DNA of 64,000 nt. Origin: Chitinophaga filiformis. GTDB taxonomy: Bacteria; Bacteroidota; Bacteroidia; Chitinophagales; Chitinophagaceae. The stretch covers positions 4,133,001-4,197,000 of the forward strand of contig NZ_CP095855.1 in assembly GCF_023100805.1 (NCBI RefSeq), given 5' to 3'. The number at the start of each line of letters is the position of its first letter. Position 1 is the first letter of the stretch. Shown here in pieces: positions 9,170-16,397 of the stretch. Under the pieces are notes generated by a model that was given only the letters and a program-made list of their open reading frames with translations, did no database searches and had not been told where the DNA came from. The translations under genes were made by a program, and so were the position numbers.

Positions 9170-11359
9170 TCACACACCCAGTTCCAGCTGGTTCTTTACC
9201 AGCTCAAAATACTTCCCGCGGTTCTTTGTCAACCCGGCATGTGAACCTACCTCCACAATCTCGCCTTTTTCCAGCACCACGATCTGCGCGGCATTCTTTA
9301 CGGTACTCAGGCGGTGTGCAATGACCACCACTGTTTTCCCTTCGAAGAAACGTTCCAGGTTGTCCATGATCGCCCTTTCATTGTTGGAGTCGAGTGCATT
9401 GGTAGCTTCATCGAAAAAGATGATCCGGGGATTGTTATACACTGCCCGTGCAATGAATAGGCGCTGCTTTTGTCCGCCACTCAGTTCTACGCCAATACTG
9501 CCAAGTAATGTATTGTGCTGCTGCGGCAGGGAGTCGACAAATTCATCAAGACAGGCAATCTGCAGCGCCCTGCGCACCTTTGTGACATCAATATCCCTGT
9601 CTGTCATCGCGATATTTTGCGCAATGGAAGCACTGTAAATGTAACCGTCCTGCATCACTACACCACATTGCCTTCTGAGATCGTCGGTGTTGATCTTTTG
9701 CAGGTCGATGTCGTCGACCCGTATATGCCCATGCTGAGGGGCATAAAAGCCCAGGAGAAGCTTCATCAGGGTGGTCTTGCCGCTGCCGCTGGTGCCTACT
9801 ATGGCAGTGATCTTCCCTTTGGGAATAGAGAGATTGATATTGCGGAGCACATAGTTATTGTGAACGCCTGCATATTTGAAGGAAAGGTCGGTTATTTCAA
9901 ATCCTTCACTGAACCCTGGAGGGAAGTTCAATTTTTCTTCATCGTTTTCGTTGGCCTTTAGCTGTATCTCATTCAGCCTTTCGAATGAAGTCCTGGCATC
10001 CTGATAGTCCTGGAAGAAGTTCATTACCTCCTGCAATGGAATGGTCAGTTGTCCGATGATGTAGCTAATACTGAGCATCACACCGAAAGATATTTTATCG
10101 TTGATCACCCAGTAAGCGCAGAGGAAAGTAATAAAGATGTTCTTCAGCTGGTTGATCGTGTTGATCCCGTTCTGTTGAAGATGGGATAATTTAAGATTGC
10201 CCAGCTTGAATTCATACAGTTTGTTTTGCAACTCGCTCCATTGAGATACCCTGACAGCCTGTGCATTATTTAGTTTGATCTCCGTCATGCCTGAAATAAG
10301 ATCGTTCAGATAGTGGCGCTCTTCAATGGCCAGCCCGAAACGGCGGTAATCCAGTTCCTTCCGCTTGCCAAGGAACAGGAAGAACCAGGTAAAAGAAAGG
10401 AAGGTGAAAGCGATAAAACTGAACACAATGTATTTGTCAAAGAACAGCATCTGCACTACATACGAGATCAGCAGCGCTGCTGAGAAGATAAAGGTCACCA
10501 GTTTTGTAGAAAGGAAGGTTTCTACTCTTTCATGGTCGTCTATACGCTGATAGATATCCGCATGATTCTTTGTATCGAAAAATGATACAGGCAGCCGCAG
10601 CAGCTTGACAAGGAACTCGGAGATAATGCTGATACTCAGCTTTGTGCTGAGCTTTGCCTGGATCAGGTTCCTGATATAATTGGTGAACGTAAGGCTGCCG
10701 AACAACATGAACTGGAACAGGAGCATCTTCCAGATAATATGAATGTTTTTTTCCTGTACGCCATGATCCGTCATGTACTGTATCGTTCTGGGGATCAGTA
10801 GTGAGAGGAGACTGGCTACCAAAATGATCAGGAACAGGATAGCCGTTTTTGCCGCATGGGGTTTCATGAATTGCAGGAACTGCCGGGAGATATTCCTGGT
10901 ATGAGCCGGGGTGCTCACCGTATTATTCTTCCCTTCCGGATCAGGTTCTACGAAAAGGGCAATGCCTTTTTCCCCTCTGCCCAGCCAGGACTGTATAAAT
11001 TCCTCACGCGATAGTGTAGCGAGGCCATACCCGGGATCGGCAACGGTGTATCTCCCGTCCCTGATGGCATAAAGTACCACGTAGTGGTTTTCGCGCCAGT
11101 GTAAGATGCAGGGGAAGGGTTGGGATGCATTCAGGTATTCGTCTGTCGTTTTCAGCACCAGGGCTTTTAAACCGGTTTGTTCAGCAGCGAAGACAATATC
11201 GCCGATATTGGTGCCGAGCCGTGAGGTATTGCACCAGTCGCGCAGCACAAATATATTCGTCTCAATACGGTAGTACTCAGCGATCATTTTTAAACAGGCA
11301 GGTCCGCAGTCCATCGAATCCAGCTGTTTCTGAAAGGGGTAATGTTTAAAGTTCAGCAT
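9170..11359 (-). CDS. Peptidase-containing ABC transporter (C39) for RiPP export
   Basis: This 729-aa half-transporter cuts double-glycine leaders and exports the product. The N-terminal C39 peptidase shows the catalytic Cys18 in MDCGPACLKM, His92 in NHYVVLY and Asp108 in VADPGYGL. Six hydrophobic segments follow (about residues 160-440). The ATPase domain has Walker A GTSGSGKTT, signature LSGGQKQRLFIARA, Walker B IIFFDEATNALD and the switch His in IAHRLSTV. It is the last gene of the minus-strand operon and overlaps the upstream paralog by 7 bp. Its leader-cleavage specificity fits the Gly37-Gly38 of the small precursor at 16188-16397. No HlyD-type adaptor gene is present in the cluster, which is unusual for such exporters in Gram-negative bacteria. 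Confidence 0.95.
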   Translation of the reverse strand: MLNFKHYPFQKQLDSMDCGPACLKMIAEYYRIETNIFVLRDWCNTSRLGTNIGDIVFAAEQTGLKALVLKTTDEYLNASQPFPCILHWRENHYVVLYAIRDGRYTVADPGYGLATLSREEFIQSWLGRGEKGIALFVEPDPEGKNNTVSTPAHTRNISRQFLQFMKPHAAKTAILFLIILVASLLSLLIPRTIQYMTDHGVQEKNIHIIWKMLLFQFMLFGSLTFTNYIRNLIQAKLSTKLSISIISEFLVKLLRLPVSFFDTKNHADIYQRIDDHERVETFLSTKLVTFIFSAALLISYVVQMLFFDKYIVFSFIAFTFLSFTWFFLFLGKRKELDYRRFGLAIEERHYLNDLISGMTEIKLNNAQAVRVSQWSELQNKLYEFKLGNLKLSHLQQNGINTINQLKNIFITFLCAYWVINDKISFGVMLSISYIIGQLTIPLQEVMNFFQDYQDARTSFERLNEIQLKANENDEEKLNFPPGFSEGFEITDLSFKYAGVHNNYVLRNINLSIPKGKITAIVGTSGSGKTTLMKLLLGFYAPQHGHIRVDDIDLQKINTDDLRRQCGVVMQDGYIYSASIAQNIAMTDRDIDVTKVRRALQIACLDEFVDSLPQQHNTLLGSIGVELSGGQKQRLFIARAVYNNPRIIFFDEATNALDSNNERAIMDNLERFFEGKTVVVIAHRLSTVKNAAQIVVLEKGEIVEVGSHAGLTKNRGKYFELVKNQLELGV

Positions 11360-12231
11360 CTGAATGTTCCAAAATAAACCATGTTGATATCTAAGGCCGT
11401 ATTCCCTAAGGTGGAGCCGTCATGAAAACAGTTATCAGTCGGCGCAATGTAAAACTGGTAAGGCTGTTGAATGAATTTAATGACGGGGTAGTCGGGGAAA
11501 TGTTTGAAGAAGTGCGCAGATACATTGTAGATGTTCACCTGCTGCTCTTTCACGTCAATCTTTTCCGATAGCATATTGAGTGCCTGGATCATTGTCAGGT
11601 TCACAAAGTAGAAGATCCGCGATTGATTGCCGAGGTTAATGGTAATGCGGTTGCCTGCCTTATGGGTGGTGTGCAGGGTCATAAACTGTGTACCATCATT
11701 ATGCAGTCCTATATACCTTTTCTCGGGAACAGTAAAGTTTTCCCTTAGTCGCGTAATATCGCAGGCTACCATTTCAAGGTTGGGCAGATTGGCGGCTATG
11801 CAGTGAAAATGGAAAGGCTTATTGTCTGCAACTGTGCTCAGGAATTCCTGCATCTTTGTATTGAGCTGTTGGACGGTTTCCGGATGATCCCTGAACTTTT
11901 GCATCACTTCCTCCCTGTTTTTCGACTGCTCCAGCCCCAGCCGCCGGATAATGTACTGGAGCTCTGCCGGAATATAACCGGTAAATATTGTATTGTGGTC
12001 CTTACGGTCCGTTTTAGCGCGGATGATGGCAGATTCCTGCGTGTTCATTTTCCGCCAGTCCTTCTTCGGCAGATAGGCGTCCTCTTCAAACAGCGGAGTA
12101 AAATGCCAGTCCTGGAAGTCTACCTTCGCCAGGGTCTGCTCTTTATAAGATGAGGTGCCCGAGTTGATAAAAACGGCATCATATCCTTCCGGTAAGAGGC
12201 TGTATAATCTTATGCCTTGTTTCAGACGCAT
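11353..12231 (-). CDS. RiPP-cluster paralog A: putative 2OG-Fe(II)-oxygenase-like protein
   Basis: First to be read by its position next to the exporter, this 292-aa cytoplasmic protein is one of four tandem paralogs. The N-terminus MRLKQGIRLYSLLPEGYDA is shared by the family. The C-terminal half holds the conserved blocks YIGLHNDGT (His177, Asp179), AGNRITINLG, HFPDYPVIK and QPYQFYIAPTDNCFHDGSTL (His270), ending VYFGTF. An H-x-D pair followed about 90 residues later by a His, inside a strand-rich C-terminal domain, is how Fe(II)/2-oxoglutarate oxygenases bind iron. The Arg that usually binds 2-oxoglutarate about 10 residues after the second His is not evident. Its start lies 3 bp after the stop of paralog B. 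Oxygenase function is inference; such enzymes occur in some cyclophane RiPP clusters. Confidence 0.7.
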   Translation of the reverse strand: MRLKQGIRLYSLLPEGYDAVFINSGTSSYKEQTLAKVDFQDWHFTPLFEEDAYLPKKDWRKMNTQESAIIRAKTDRKDHNTIFTGYIPAELQYIIRRLGLEQSKNREEVMQKFRDHPETVQQLNTKMQEFLSTVADNKPFHFHCIAANLPNLEMVACDITRLRENFTVPEKRYIGLHNDGTQFMTLHTTHKAGNRITINLGNQSRIFYFVNLTMIQALNMLSEKIDVKEQQVNIYNVSAHFFKHFPDYPVIKFIQQPYQFYIAPTDNCFHDGSTLGNTALDINMVYFGTFRC

Positions 12232-12234
12232 ACA

Positions 12235-13116
12235 TTAATATTGAAAGTTGCCAAAATAAACCATAGTGACATCCAGCGTAGAGCTGCCCAGTGTTGAGCC
12301 ATCATGGAAACAGTTATCGGTTGGAGCAATATAGAACTGGTAAGGTTGCTGACGGATCTTTAAAACCGGATAATCGGGGTAATGCTGGAAGAAGAAGCGG
12401 CCAATATTAGCGATGTTGACATTGTGCTCCACTATATCTATTTTCTTCTTCAGCATGTTGATAGCCTGTACCATAGAGAGGTTTACAAACAGGAATGACC
12501 TGCTTTCCTCTCCGATATTGATGGAGATCCTGTTGCCGGCTTTATTGGCAGTATAGATGGTCATATCTTTTGTACCATCATTGTGCATGCCCATATACCT
12601 GATATCCTGCGGTTTGTAGCCCGCCGGCAGTTTGGTGGTATTACAGGCCACCAGCTCAATATTGGGGAAGTTGATGCCGATACAATGGAATTTGAACGGC
12701 TGTTTATTGGCCAGTGGTTGTAAGAATGCATTGAGCTGTTCACTGAGCGCTTTGGTCTTTTCCGGGCTTGCCGCCAGTTTTTCCATTACTTCATCCCTGT
12801 TCGCAGCTCCGGCTAAAGAGAGCGACTGGAATTGTTCTTTGAGCTTTCCCGGAATATCGCCCAGGTAGACGGTATTGTAATCATTACGGCGACCGTTTGC
12901 CTGCAGGCACCTGATCTCCGCATCATTCAATGCCCGCCAGTCCCTTTTGATGACATACGCGTCATCATTATATCGGGGTACATAGTTAAAGCCCTGGAAG
13001 CTGACAGCTGGCGCTGTTTGTGTCGCATGGTGAACTGTTCCTGAATTGATGCTGATGGCATCATAGTTTTCAGGCAGCTGGTTATAGATAGTGATCCCTT
13101 TTTTTAATTGTGTCAT
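12235..13116 (-). CDS. RiPP-cluster paralog B: putative 2OG-Fe(II)-oxygenase-like protein
   Basis: This 293-aa protein is the closest in layout to paralog A. The start at 13116 gives MTQLKKGITIYNQLPENYDA, matching the other three N-termini; an upstream in-frame Met at 13152 would overlap the preceding gene and adds unrelated residues. The putative iron set is His178/Asp180 in MGMHNDGT and His271 in TDNCFHDGSTLG. Other family blocks are AGNRISINIG, FFFQHYPDYPVLKI and VYFGNF. The middle region (residues about 85-140) is predicted helical and is the most divergent part among paralogs, so it may contact the substrate (inference). It sits 23 bp after paralog C in the same operon. It has no signal peptide, so it would act on the precursor before export. 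Confidence 0.7.
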   Translation of the reverse strand: MTQLKKGITIYNQLPENYDAISINSGTVHHATQTAPAVSFQGFNYVPRYNDDAYVIKRDWRALNDAEIRCLQANGRRNDYNTVYLGDIPGKLKEQFQSLSLAGAANRDEVMEKLAASPEKTKALSEQLNAFLQPLANKQPFKFHCIGINFPNIELVACNTTKLPAGYKPQDIRYMGMHNDGTKDMTIYTANKAGNRISINIGEESRSFLFVNLSMVQAINMLKKKIDIVEHNVNIANIGRFFFQHYPDYPVLKIRQQPYQFYIAPTDNCFHDGSTLGSSTLDVTMVYFGNFQY

Positions 13117-13139
13117 GTTTAACAGGTTTGAAGGGTGTG

Positions 13140-14024
13140 TCAGGGCTGGCAACGGAACATGCCGAAATAGACCAGGATGATGTCCAGCGACTTCATGCCC
13201 AGCGTGGATCCGTCATGGAAACAATTATCCGTCGGGGCAATGTAGTACTGGTATGGATGCTGTGTGATCTTCACCACGGGATAATCAGGGAAATATCTGA
13301 AGAAATATTCCGCAATGTTGATGATGTCTATCTTATGATTGTTCACATCCATTACCTGCTTCAGCTTATTCAGCGCCTGTACCATAGTGAGGTTCAGGAA
13401 GAGGAAGGAGCGGGGTTCTGCACCAAGATTGATCGTCAGCCTGTTCCCGAGTTTATGCAACTGGTAGGGAGACACATACGCCGTACCATCGTTATGGATG
13501 CCCATATACTTCTTATCCTGCTCCTTGTAACCTGCCGGCATGACGGTAGTGTCGCAGGCTGTTACTTCAAGATCGGGCAGATTGGTGCCAAGGTAATGGA
13601 ACCTGAATGGATACCCATTGGATTTGCCCTGGAGGAACTGATCAGTCAATCTGTTGATTTCGGTAGTCAGCGCGGGATTGTCCCTGAATGCTGCAAAGAC
13701 ATCCTCCCTGTTTCTGCACTGCTCCAGGTGCAACTGTTCGAACAGCGATCGCAGGTCGTCCGGGATATCTCCCAGGCAGATCGTTTTGCCAATATCATGT
13801 TTACCCACGGGCTTTAGTATATTTATTTCTGTACTGTCCAGCGGCCGCCAGTTCCGCTTTGGCAGGAATGCGCCTTCTTCAAAGTCAGGCACGAAGGAAA
13901 GCCCTTCGTAATTGACCGCCTGTTTGTCCTGGCCGGCATGATGTAATACTCCTGTGTTGATGGAAACAGCACGATACCCATCAGCGGTCTGGCTATGTAA
14001 GCGTATGCCTTTGATCATTTTCAT
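13140..14024 (-). CDS. RiPP-cluster paralog C: putative 2OG-Fe(II)-oxygenase-like protein
   Basis: This 294-aa member begins MKMIKGIRLHSQTADGYRA. It has the same C-terminal blocks as A and B: MGIHNDGT (His177, Asp179), LGNRLTINLG, YFPDYPVVKI and YIAPTDNCFHDGSTLG (His270), then VYFGMFRCQP. A Met at residue 3 is an alternative start. The gene begins 3 bp after the stop of paralog D and ends 23 bp before paralog B. Spacing between the H-x-D pair and the second His (91 residues from Asp to His) is the same in A, B and C, which argues for a conserved fold and active site. The high divergence elsewhere indicates old duplications rather than a recent array. Confidence 0.7.
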   Translation of the reverse strand: MKMIKGIRLHSQTADGYRAVSINTGVLHHAGQDKQAVNYEGLSFVPDFEEGAFLPKRNWRPLDSTEINILKPVGKHDIGKTICLGDIPDDLRSLFEQLHLEQCRNREDVFAAFRDNPALTTEINRLTDQFLQGKSNGYPFRFHYLGTNLPDLEVTACDTTVMPAGYKEQDKKYMGIHNDGTAYVSPYQLHKLGNRLTINLGAEPRSFLFLNLTMVQALNKLKQVMDVNNHKIDIINIAEYFFRYFPDYPVVKITQHPYQYYIAPTDNCFHDGSTLGMKSLDIILVYFGMFRCQP

Positions 14025-14027
14025 ACA

Positions 14028-14870
14028 CTAGTTGTTTAGGCTTACCTTGTCAAAAATGCCCGTGTAAACGATGGTTACATCTATTTCCCTGTTACCCAGT
14101 GTAGTGGCATCATGAAAGAAATTGTCCGTGGGCGCTATGTAATATTGATAAGGTTTGATCTCAATTTTAAGAGCCGGATAATCTGAATAGTGCTGAAAGA
14201 AATAATAGGCGATATTGTCGGGGTTCACTTCAGACACATCCATCTTTTCTCTCAACATATTTACCACCTGCCGCATAGAAAGGTTAATGAAAGCCAGCCA
14301 GCGGTTCTCTTTACTCAGGTTAATGGAAATGCGGTTGCCCGACCTATAGGCAGTATGTGGTGTAAAACGTTTACTCTGGTCGATATGTAAGCCGATATAG
14401 ATGAACTGTTCATCAATATAATGACAGGTGATGGTTTCACGGTTAGGCATTGCCCTTGTAATACGGTGAAACTTATAATTCCTGCTGGCAGACAATGGGC
14501 GCAGGAATGCTTCCAGTTCTTCTGTTATCTGCTTTACGATGCTTTCATTCTCTTTGAGCGCCGGGTACACTTTGTCCAGTTCCTTCACCTGGTCAAGGCC
14601 AAGTGTTGCGAAAGAGCGCCTGAGCGTTTCCGGTATTTCTCCCACGTAGATGCTTTTGCTGAAATCTGTGCCGGCAGCAGTATTGCTTACTAATAATTTT
14701 GATTCGGCCGGCTGCAGATGTCTCCATTCATGTCTGGGAATATATGAGCCGGGATGGTAATAAAGCCCGGTGTCTGCTGTGGCAGGGATGGTGCCGGCGT
14801 TAATATACAACTGGTCATTAATGCCGGGCAGCTTGCTGTACAAGCCGATTCCTTTTTTTAGCTCCATCAT
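14028..14870 (-). CDS. RiPP-cluster paralog D (most divergent): putative 2OG-Fe(II)-oxygenase-like protein
   Basis: At 280 aa this is the shortest and most divergent paralog and the first read after the radical SAM gene. Its ATG at 14870 overlaps the radical SAM stop (ATGA), implying coupled translation. The N-terminus MMELKKGIGLYSKLPG fits the family. The putative iron set persists as His162/Asp164 in YIGLHIDQS and His253 in YIAPTDNFFHDATTLG, although Asn-Asp-Gly-Thr and Cys of the other paralogs are changed. SGNRISINLS and FFQHYSDYPALKI are also kept. The C-terminus runs on as DKVSLNN. Retention of just these His/Asp residues in the outlier supports their being functional. It may act at a different site on the peptide (inference). 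Confidence 0.68.
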   Translation of the reverse strand: MMELKKGIGLYSKLPGINDQLYINAGTIPATADTGLYYHPGSYIPRHEWRHLQPAESKLLVSNTAAGTDFSKSIYVGEIPETLRRSFATLGLDQVKELDKVYPALKENESIVKQITEELEAFLRPLSASRNYKFHRITRAMPNRETITCHYIDEQFIYIGLHIDQSKRFTPHTAYRSGNRISINLSKENRWLAFINLSMRQVVNMLREKMDVSEVNPDNIAYYFFQHYSDYPALKIEIKPYQYYIAPTDNFFHDATTLGNREIDVTIVYTGIFDKVSLNN

Positions 14871-16120
14871 GATAGTTGTTTAAATGAAGTTAATTTTTGT
14901 TGTACGTGCTTGTCAATCCTGTTGAGGGCAGGTCTTTTCAGCTCTTCCATTACTTCTTCGTAAGACATCTTCTCAACACCTATCTGTTCAACCGTTTCAT
15001 GCGGAAGGCTTTCCAGAATATCGTTCTGCAGGAAACTGACCAGGCGGATAATATCTTTGCAGTAAATAGTGGGATTATCAAAGCCATTGGCCTCCGAAAA
15101 CCTGTTGCCCAGGAAGCCGCCACCACAGATGTCGTAAACAGGGCAGTTCAGGCATTGCTCGCAAACCATTTCATGGGAGTTGTAGAAGAGCTCAAAAACA
15201 TCGTCTCCGAAAAGATCTTCTATCTTTCCTGTATGTACATTGATATTGTTCCTTGTGATGCCCTCATAACAAGCCCTTAATGAATCAACCACCTCTATTC
15301 CGCCGTTGGTCTCTATGACGGCAACGCCATTGGTTTTCTTTCCTATGGCCTGGTTACCGATATGCTCATTGCCCATCAGCAGGGCGATGAGGTTCTCAAA
15401 AAGCCGGATGGCTGGTCTGCTCTTATCCTTTTTCCATAATACGAACAATGCGATGAGCCAGTCTGCATAAGGCGTATATTCTTCTTCGGATACTCTTTTA
15501 AGGTCAAATCCTCCCGGTAATTTGCTGTGATGACCATCGGGAAATAGAAGGTTCAGGTTCCTTACGCCCAGCTGTTTGATCTCCTCGTAAAATTCGGCGG
15601 GCGGTATATCCACGTTCAGGACCATCAGTATGCCGGTAAGGCCATTGTCTTTTCCCAGCCTCACAGCTTTTGCTACTTCTTCGTAGGAACCTTTCCCGTT
15701 ATGAAATACCCTGTAACGGTCATGTTGTTGCCGCGGACCATCAAAGCTGATCCCTATCTTCACCTGGTACTCATTAAAGAAATGATACCAGTCGCTGTCC
15801 AGCTGTACGCCATTGGTTTGAATGGTATAGGAGAATTCGATATCAGGGCAGGTGCTGGTAAAGATCTCAATGCTTTCGCGGAAAAATTCTTTACTCAGCA
15901 GCAGGGGTTCACCTCCATGGAAGACGATCTGTACAAACCTTATATCTGCAGCGCTGCAGTATGACCGTAATCTGTCTGCCAGCGCGCTGATAGTATCGAT
16001 AGACATGAACTTAGGCTGGTTCATATAGGTCTTGTCGCCCAGGTTATACATGTAACAGTACGAACAGTTGAGATTACACCGGCTGGCAATTTTGAGCACG
16101 AATGAGCTTATCTTTTTCAT
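14867..16120 (-). CDS. Radical SAM/SPASM peptide maturase, cyclophane-forming type
   Basis: This 417-aa enzyme should bind one AdoMet-cleaving [4Fe-4S] cluster at Cys15, Cys19 and Cys22 (CNLNCSYCYMYNLGDKTY) and auxiliary clusters in a C-terminal SPASM domain: Cys284, Cys320, Cys323, Cys326, Cys332 and Cys354, in MVCEQCLNCPVYDICGGG and NGFDNPTIYC. FHGGEPLL is the GGEP motif. The opening around CYMYNLGD plus the CGGG...NGFDNP ending is what I know from FxsB/GrrM/XyeB-like maturases, which join an aromatic ring to the beta-carbon two residues on. It lies 67 bp after the precursor, separated by a perfect hairpin, and overlaps paralog D. The fold is certain; the cyclophane chemistry is inferred from the subfamily. 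Confidence 0.9.
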   Translation of the reverse strand: MKKISSFVLKIASRCNLNCSYCYMYNLGDKTYMNQPKFMSIDTISALADRLRSYCSAADIRFVQIVFHGGEPLLLSKEFFRESIEIFTSTCPDIEFSYTIQTNGVQLDSDWYHFFNEYQVKIGISFDGPRQQHDRYRVFHNGKGSYEEVAKAVRLGKDNGLTGILMVLNVDIPPAEFYEEIKQLGVRNLNLLFPDGHHSKLPGGFDLKRVSEEEYTPYADWLIALFVLWKKDKSRPAIRLFENLIALLMGNEHIGNQAIGKKTNGVAVIETNGGIEVVDSLRACYEGITRNNINVHTGKIEDLFGDDVFELFYNSHEMVCEQCLNCPVYDICGGGFLGNRFSEANGFDNPTIYCKDIIRLVSFLQNDILESLPHETVEQIGVEKMSYEEVMEELKRPALNRIDKHVQQKLTSFKQLS

Positions 16121-16143
16121 AGTAGAAACGGGGTTGAGTATAG

Positions 16144-16175
16144 ATAGCCAATCTATCTGCTGATAGATTGGCTAT
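16144..16175 (-). promoter_or_regulatory. Intercistronic hairpin between precursor and maturase genes
   Basis: A perfect 14-bp inverted repeat (16144-16157 and 16162-16175, arm ATAGCCAATCTATC) with a 4-nt loop fills the 67-bp gap between the precursor stop and the radical SAM start. On the minus strand no U-run follows, so it is more likely a partial attenuator or an RNA 3'-end stabiliser. Either would give more precursor than enzyme, a common arrangement in peptide natural-product operons (inference). Confidence 0.7.
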
Positions 16176-16187
16176 ACTGCCGGTTAA

Positions 16188-16397
16188 TTAACCAATTGCC
16201 TGTAAGAAAGTATCGTGCTTATCGTAAGCAGATGCTCTTGAACGCAGATTGCTAACGGCAACAACAGGACAGTCAGCGCCTACGCCACCAAAAATAGCTT
16301 TGTAGAGGTCAAGCTGCTCGTTCTGTGAAGACTTCAGTGCTTCATCAATGATACTTTTCTGTTCGGGTTGTGGTGCGATCCTGGTTTTTTTCTTCAT
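16188..16397 (-). CDS. RiPP precursor peptide with double-glycine leader
   Basis: This 69-aa gene is the likely substrate of the cluster. Residues 1-38 form a polar, helix-prone leader ending in NEQLDLYKAIFGG, matching the Leu/Ile-rich pattern before Gly-Gly that C39 exporters cut. The predicted core (39-69) starts VGADCPVV and ends SAYDKHDTFLQAIG. It contains one Cys (43) and three aromatic-type residues, Tyr58, His61 and Phe64, spaced exactly three apart: YDK, HDT, FLQ. Each triplet fits the aromatic-X-X pattern crosslinked by three-residue-cyclophane maturases (inference). The gene is first in the minus-strand operon, 67 bp before the radical SAM gene. The ATG at 16397 begins MKKKTRIAPQ. 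No second precursor was found. Product activity is unknown. Confidence 0.85.
   Translation of the reverse strand: MKKKTRIAPQPEQKSIIDEALKSSQNEQLDLYKAIFGGVGADCPVVAVSNLRSRASAYDKHDTFLQAIG

Follow-up and report, generated by a model that had tools for sequence, protein, structure and literature searches.

The window analysed here is a stretch of 64,000 nucleotides from the 8.26-Mb genome of Chitinophaga filiformis (G000:C1:4133001-4197000), which carries on its minus strand, at positions 9170-16397, an operon of seven genes in the order precursor peptide, radical S-adenosylmethionine (SAM) enzyme, oxygenases D, C, B and A, and C39 exporter. It is likely that this operon makes a ribosomally synthesized and post-translationally modified peptide (RiPP), which is cross-linked by the radical SAM enzyme, then oxidised by the four oxygenases and exported by the C39 protein. 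By homology, fold and metal ligands the four paralogs are Fe(II)/alpha-ketoglutarate oxygenases of the MicC family, with oxidation of the peptide as their presumed reaction, and the product is probably a heavily modified natural product.

The four oxygenases

The four paralogs of the window are around 35-51% identical to one another and match no Pfam or NCBIfam model, even with the threshold at E=10. A profile made from these four sequences alone retrieved a sole convincing structure from the PDB, 9vkm (E 8.7e-31), which is titled 'alpha-ketoglutarate-dependent non-heme iron oxygenase MicC'. With relatives added to the profile, the same match reached E 3.8e-55 and 190 bits over the full length (273 residues, profile positions 4-276). 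In parallel, oxygenase B was modelled by AlphaFold2 from an alignment of 72 relatives, with a predicted local distance difference test score of 96.6, and the model contains a double-stranded beta-helix. Foldseek placed the Kdo hydroxylase KdoO first (E 2.3e-4), followed by other 2-oxoglutarate (2OG) enzymes, and VIA returned Fe/2OG oxygenases throughout the top 50 listed, with a best Z of 9.2. The structure 9vkm is not among the fold-library matches listed for the model. As whole-length TM-scores are low (0.38), the likeness concerns the core fold only.

An HxD...H triad (H178, D180 and H271 in the numbering of B) is invariant in 72/72 rows of the alignment, the four window copies included, and so are R206, N200 and Y262. 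The triad and R206 are retained in MicC, and the invariant R206 is a candidate ligand of the cosubstrate. A different metal site of the ChlH type (HExxH) was considered for oxygenase D, which contains HEWRH, and was rejected, because the motif reads HGWRH in its ortholog at locus L019 and C, B and A lack it. The first-pass annotation had called the paralogs oxygenase-like, of the cupin/2OG kind, and had named structure prediction as the check and an unrelated fold as the adverse outcome; the homology to MicC, the 2OG fold of the model of B, and the triad in all four copies bear this out, and no unrelated fold emerged. Besides homology and triad, the window enzymes share with MicC a conserved IAP(T/A)(D/E)N..HDG(S/T) end. 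They differ from it in overall sequence (about 25-30% identity) and at family residues R196 and T266, which are Ile and Ala in MicC; moreover, there is no sign here that MicC sits in a four-gene array, and neither its organism nor its precursor was found in the plasmids or in the 227 genomes of the class.

Conservation and history of the array

All seven genes are present in the same order in two further Chitinophaga species, where the precursor is 96-97% identical, and 3 of the 79 genomes of the genus carry the four-oxygenase locus. Comparison of these three loci gives dN/dS values of 0.04-0.09 for each oxygenase and of 0.03-0.06 for the radical SAM enzyme and the exporter, with a range of 0.03-0.09 over every gene. 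Every gene of the operon, the four oxygenases included, is under purifying selection and, given these ratios and the recurrence in two other species, the operon is no chance arrangement.

In a maximum-likelihood tree, the gene that stands first after the radical SAM gene in every tandem locus of this type belongs to one group, D, and groups C, B and A each span Chitinophagaceae, Flavobacteriaceae and Sphingobacteriaceae. The support value is 95 for A as well as for C; B is less well supported, and its two halves are not confidently united. The order D-C-B-A is constant in Chitinophaga, Kordia, Aquimarina and Tenacibaculum, A is absent from the Flavobacterium omnivorum, Longitalea and Niastella loci, and C is absent from one Mucilaginibacter locus (L031). 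Another Mucilaginibacter locus (L039) combines D, A and one early-branching copy, and Chryseobacterium has D together with a second gene that branches before the separation of C, B and A. Since the ortholog groups cross families, A or C is missing in places and the Chryseobacterium gene predates the duplications, the array, judged by the gene trees, expanded through old duplications and was trimmed later. Horizontal transfer of the array is likely. Recent tandem duplication and dead copies are both ruled out by the cross-family groups, the intact triads and the dN/dS values.

These data also bear on how the four enzymes share their work. Duplication often yields degenerate copies, and some paralogs could have been reduced to substrate-binding helpers, with one or two catalysts only; this is very improbable, as the triad and the candidate cosubstrate arginine are invariant in all four groups and each oxygenase is under purifying selection. 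A constant gene order, close packing and the branching of A, B and C after a Chryseobacterium gene that works with D alone would suit obligate complexes or sequential action at one site, whether iterative or hetero-oligomeric. Such an arrangement is nevertheless distinctly unlikely, since A or C is each dispensable while the others remain (L028-L031) and every copy has a complete metal triad.

The radical SAM enzyme

The maturase matches PF04055 at 62.1 bits (gathering threshold 29.5) and carries the CxxxCxxC motif as C15, C19 and C22, which places it in the radical SAM superfamily. Its best NCBIfam models are NF041707 (YhhB; 325.8 bits) and TIGR04269 (FxsB; 304.7 bits), and its relatives score similarly against both. 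The cut-offs are 445 and 370 bits, respectively, so that identity as a YhhB equivalog was rejected and membership of the FxsB family failed; judged by these scores, the enzyme is best described as a relative of YhhB and FxsB that stands outside both families. In a PDB search the closest solved protein is the radical SAM domain of ChlB (E 9e-55). The label 'Yhh type' that had been attached to the cluster at first reading thus holds as a resemblance, to the YhhB and FxsB models and to ChlB, and fails as a membership.

YhhB links Tyr-C3 to the C-beta of Arg (PMC11002830), and the Y-x-K/R of the window-type cores agrees with this link. A flavobacterial locus (L148, genome G483) has a YhhB-like radical SAM enzyme, an exporter and a small precursor, with another gene at the place of the oxygenases. 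As this locus lacks any oxygenase, the oxygenase is an optional partner.

Precursor peptide and core

The precursor gene, present as a single copy in the genome, encodes a leader that ends in ...EQLDLYKAIFGG, with a double-glycine cleavage site (...YKAIFGG), and a core of 31 residues, VGADCPVVAVSNLRSRASAYDKHDTFLQAIG. Each tandem-type locus with complete DNA has a peptide upstream of the radical SAM gene whose leader ends in LDLYKAIFGG or similar. Two loci have an additional peptide: in Niastella (L030, 6424-6886) two neighbouring precursor genes, whose cores differ, accompany one radical SAM enzyme and three oxygenases, and in Mucilaginibacter (L039, 3756-3962) a second precursor lies ahead of the outer-membrane gene.

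Comparison of 36 cores revealed one Cys, a Tyr, a Phe and the Leu after this Phe as invariant, along with Lys/Arg at Tyr+2 in all 36, Val at Cys+2 in 34 and Asp at Phe-2 in 32. Aromatic-X-X motifs of the triceptide kind, Y-[DNS]-[KR] and F-L-x, are found in 36/36 cores. The candidacy of His61 as a fixed cross-link donor was weakened, as His occurs at Phe-3 in only 9/36 cores and the histidine of YDKHD lacks conservation.

The presence of Cys and Tyr among the few invariant residues raises the alternative that at least one oxygenase is a cyclase joining Cys43 to Tyr58 or another residue, which would add a thioether ring to the cyclophanes. According to PMC12636437, a Cys-Tyr cross-link made by an alpha-ketoglutarate enzyme in a RiPP has been reported. 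Yet we consider a cyclase unlikely: the clusters L021 and L023, with divergent oxygenases, have likely precursors without Cys, and Cys is thus not the common substrate of the family; the spacing between Cys and Tyr ranges from 12 to 18 among the cores; and hydroxylation is the commoner reaction.

The cores also co-vary with the enzymes present. Arg stands at Tyr-4 in 13/13 cores from loci with A and in 0/23 from loci without it; the A-positive cores have a Cys-Tyr distance of exactly 15, column Y-7 separates the same loci, and the presence of C matches Ala, Ile or Pro at Phe+4. The screen covered about 33 features per enzyme for three enzymes. A changes at least three times on the best radical SAM tree, and once on well-supported branches; a sign test on the A/Arg pairing is unable to reach 0.05, and the Arg trait entered the tree test as the same partition already seen in the core comparison. 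Given 1-3 evolutionary changes and the number of features screened, the association of A with Arg at Tyr-4 may be taken as a lead only. A fuller assignment of one enzyme to each site, in which A acts on Arg54 at Tyr-4 and C at Phe+4, one member bonds Cys43 oxidatively and the product is a triceptide of a new structural class, polycyclic and oxidised four-fold, is a doubtful extension of this lead.

Export, operon layout and flanking elements

The exporter combines PF03412, PF00664 and PF00005, with an intact C39 motif (QLDSMDCGPAC), Walker A, LSGGQ and Walker B, and is hence an intact C39-ABC exporter of the kind that serves double-glycine RiPPs. Coordinates of open reading frames (ORFs) and other features are given in Table 1. 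D overlaps the radical SAM gene by 4 bp and A overlaps the exporter gene by 7 bp, while the gaps are 3 bp between D and C, 23 bp between C and B (from the ATG of B) and 3 bp between B and A. This confirms the gene order, strand, overlaps and spacing described earlier. Oxygenase B starts at the ATG at 13116, and an alternative longer frame begins at an in-frame TTG at 13152.

Table 1. Features of the operon and its upstream neighbour (positions in the window)
Feature	Position	Strand	Basis
Precursor peptide, 69 aa	16188..16397	-	ORF, homologous cores in relatives
Intergenic mRNA hairpin, precursor/radical SAM	16121..16187	-	RNA fold
Radical SAM/SPASM-like peptide maturase, 417 aa, CNLNCSYC cluster motif	14867..16120	-	PF04055, NF041707, TIGR04269, ChlB similarity
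Oxygenase D, 280 aa, first gene after radical SAM	14028..14870	-	MicC-profile homology, triad, tree
Oxygenase C, 294 aa	13140..14024	-	MicC-profile homology, triad, tree
Oxygenase B, 293 aa, AlphaFold2-modelled	12235..13116	-	MicC-profile homology, triad, tree, predicted fold
Oxygenase A, 292 aa	11353..12231	-	MicC-profile homology, triad, tree
C39 peptidase/ABC exporter, 729 aa	9170..11359	-	PF03412, PF00664, PF00005 and motifs
Outer-membrane beta-barrel protein with CarboxypepD_reg domain, 802 aa	16531..18939	-	PF14905, 259 bits

Between the precursor and radical SAM genes lies a hairpin with a perfect 12-bp stem (AGCCAATCTATC/GATAGATTGGCT; -22 kcal/mol, z -5.4). A hairpin is found at the same place in 18/18 relatives examined, with differing stem sequences, and a run of T follows it in Kordia. 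The hairpin is a probable processing or attenuation element that would favour precursor supply. Directly upstream of the precursor, a PF14905 beta-barrel gene is present in 13 of the 14 complete-DNA loci of the three- and four-oxygenase types, and no relative of it was found near the Chryseobacterium loci. Immunity, uptake and release are candidate roles of this outer-membrane protein.

Proposed pathway

Most likely, three-residue cyclophanes are formed first by the radical SAM enzyme, after which each oxygenase modifies a site of its own. Along this path, the radical SAM enzyme would bind the leader of the precursor and, by analogy with triceptide synthases, would join an aromatic ring to the C-beta of the residue two positions on, in Tyr58-Asp-Lys60 and Phe64-Leu-Gln66, with His61-Asp-Thr63 as a possible third site. 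Oxygenases A to D would each have one or more target residues of their own in this core, with hydroxylation as the simplest form of oxidation. In particular, D may act on a feature that all cores share, either the Cys or the Y-x-K/D-x-F-L block, and C, B and A, derived by duplication, may act on sites gained and lost along with them. The exporter would finally cleave after Gly37-Gly38 and secrete the product of 31 residues, and the hairpin 3' of the precursor gene may hold precursor mRNA in excess.

The order of cross-link first and oxidation second is suggested by the precedent of ChlB, as an analogy between systems whose oxygenase folds differ. PMC12636437 describes ChlB as a synthase of multiple cyclophanes, the alpha-ketoglutarate partner domain of which beta-hydroxylates Asp and His after cyclophane formation. 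The steps proposed for the window follow this fused ChlB/ChlH system (PMC12636437 and its refs 12-13), in which a radical SAM enzyme and an alpha-ketoglutarate HExxH hydroxylase work in the same sequence. ChlH has a zincin-like HExxH fold, whereas the window oxygenases are stand-alone proteins with a double-stranded beta-helix and an HxD...H triad.

Several observations weigh against this pathway. The radical SAM enzyme falls under every curated cyclophane-maturase cut-off, the FLL cores of Chryseobacterium misfit the usual cross-link acceptor, and the assignment of residues to oxygenases is built on few evolutionary events. In the literature searched, neither a product nor a reaction catalysed by this oxygenase subfamily was found. 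Finally, in the DNA examined around each locus, no linked C39 exporter of the window type was found in Kordia (L035), Aquimarina (L036), Tenacibaculum (L032), all three with four oxygenases, or Chryseobacterium; export may differ in these genera, with an exporter located elsewhere or of another type.

Distribution across bacteria

A genome scan with the conserved motif YIAPT[DE]N returned 41 loci, mostly in Bacteroidota, with outliers in Nostoc, Calothrix, Variovorax, Streptomyces and Cellvibrio. A radical SAM gene lies within 3 kb in all 38 oxygenase loci that are uncut by a contig edge. In the outlier loci the adjacent radical SAM enzyme is only distantly related to that of the window; on a Nostoc plasmid, the one neighbouring the oxygenase is named GrrM/OscB by NCBI. 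In the plasmid records examined the oxygenase family is labelled hypothetical protein.

Distant relatives have a single oxygenase. Tandem pairs occur in Chryseobacterium and one related genus, sets of three in Flavobacterium omnivorum, Longitalea, Niastella and Mucilaginibacter, and sets of four in Chitinophaga, Kordia, Tenacibaculum, Aquimarina and one metagenome-assembled genome. The two-oxygenase type occurs in 21/296 genomes of the family of Chryseobacterium. The first-pass annotation had regarded four oxygenases as unusual; the array is still deemed so, but arrays of two to four recur in more than 20 species.

Some loci depart from this pattern or have other neighbours. Another Chitinophaga (L024, 9057-9287) retains a 76-residue C-terminal oxygenase remnant beside an outer-membrane beta-barrel gene, with no radical SAM gene found, and is probably a decayed cluster. 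On a Methylocystis parvus plasmid (L151, 3950-4963), a distant family member sits amid TonB receptor, iron ABC transporter and nitrogenase-like genes with no annotated radical SAM gene near it, which hints that the family may also have a use outside RiPP pathways. In L041 and further loci of Chryseobacterium, genes for carbohydrate use stand immediately upstream of the two-oxygenase cluster; from reading of the ORFs alone, they resemble SusD, an outer-membrane binding protein and a GH97-like glucosidase.

Relation to known systems

The operon shares a short precursor, a SPASM-type radical SAM enzyme and C-terminal aromatic-X-X motifs with the triceptide clusters of YhhB, XncB and OscB/GrrM (PMC11002830). 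It differs from them in a radical SAM enzyme outside the YhhB, FxsB and XyeB cut-offs, and window-type loci have two to four tandem oxygenases and an invariant core Cys.

A second cluster of the same genome (L021, G000:C1:2470000-2489900; cluster at about 2.477-2.489 Mb) likewise has YhhB-like radical SAM enzymes, MicC-family oxygenases, a C39 exporter and an OMP_b-brl_3 protein. Here, in contrast to the window, the radical SAM genes are two in tandem, the two divergent oxygenases are set apart and the likely precursor is a different one that lacks Cys; a glycosyltransferase of family 11, an HlyD-like protein and a small GG peptide are also encoded. Aromatic-X-X cores recur in such clusters of the family, with PWAKSTFSKD in L023 and AFGQAHISGGWLRS in L021 as putative precursor assignments.

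The MicC family and the cross-linking class are both known, while their combination and the orthologous four-part division are undescribed in the literature and libraries searched. Characterised alpha-ketoglutarate oxygenases in RiPP pathways are few (PMC12636437). Collectively, the clusters form a series in which one precursor family is accompanied by two, three or four orthologous oxygenases, and which offers a comparison for how sites are divided among enzymes on a small peptide. As the oxygenase family lacks a Pfam or NCBIfam name, a profile made from these sequences would reveal many further clusters.

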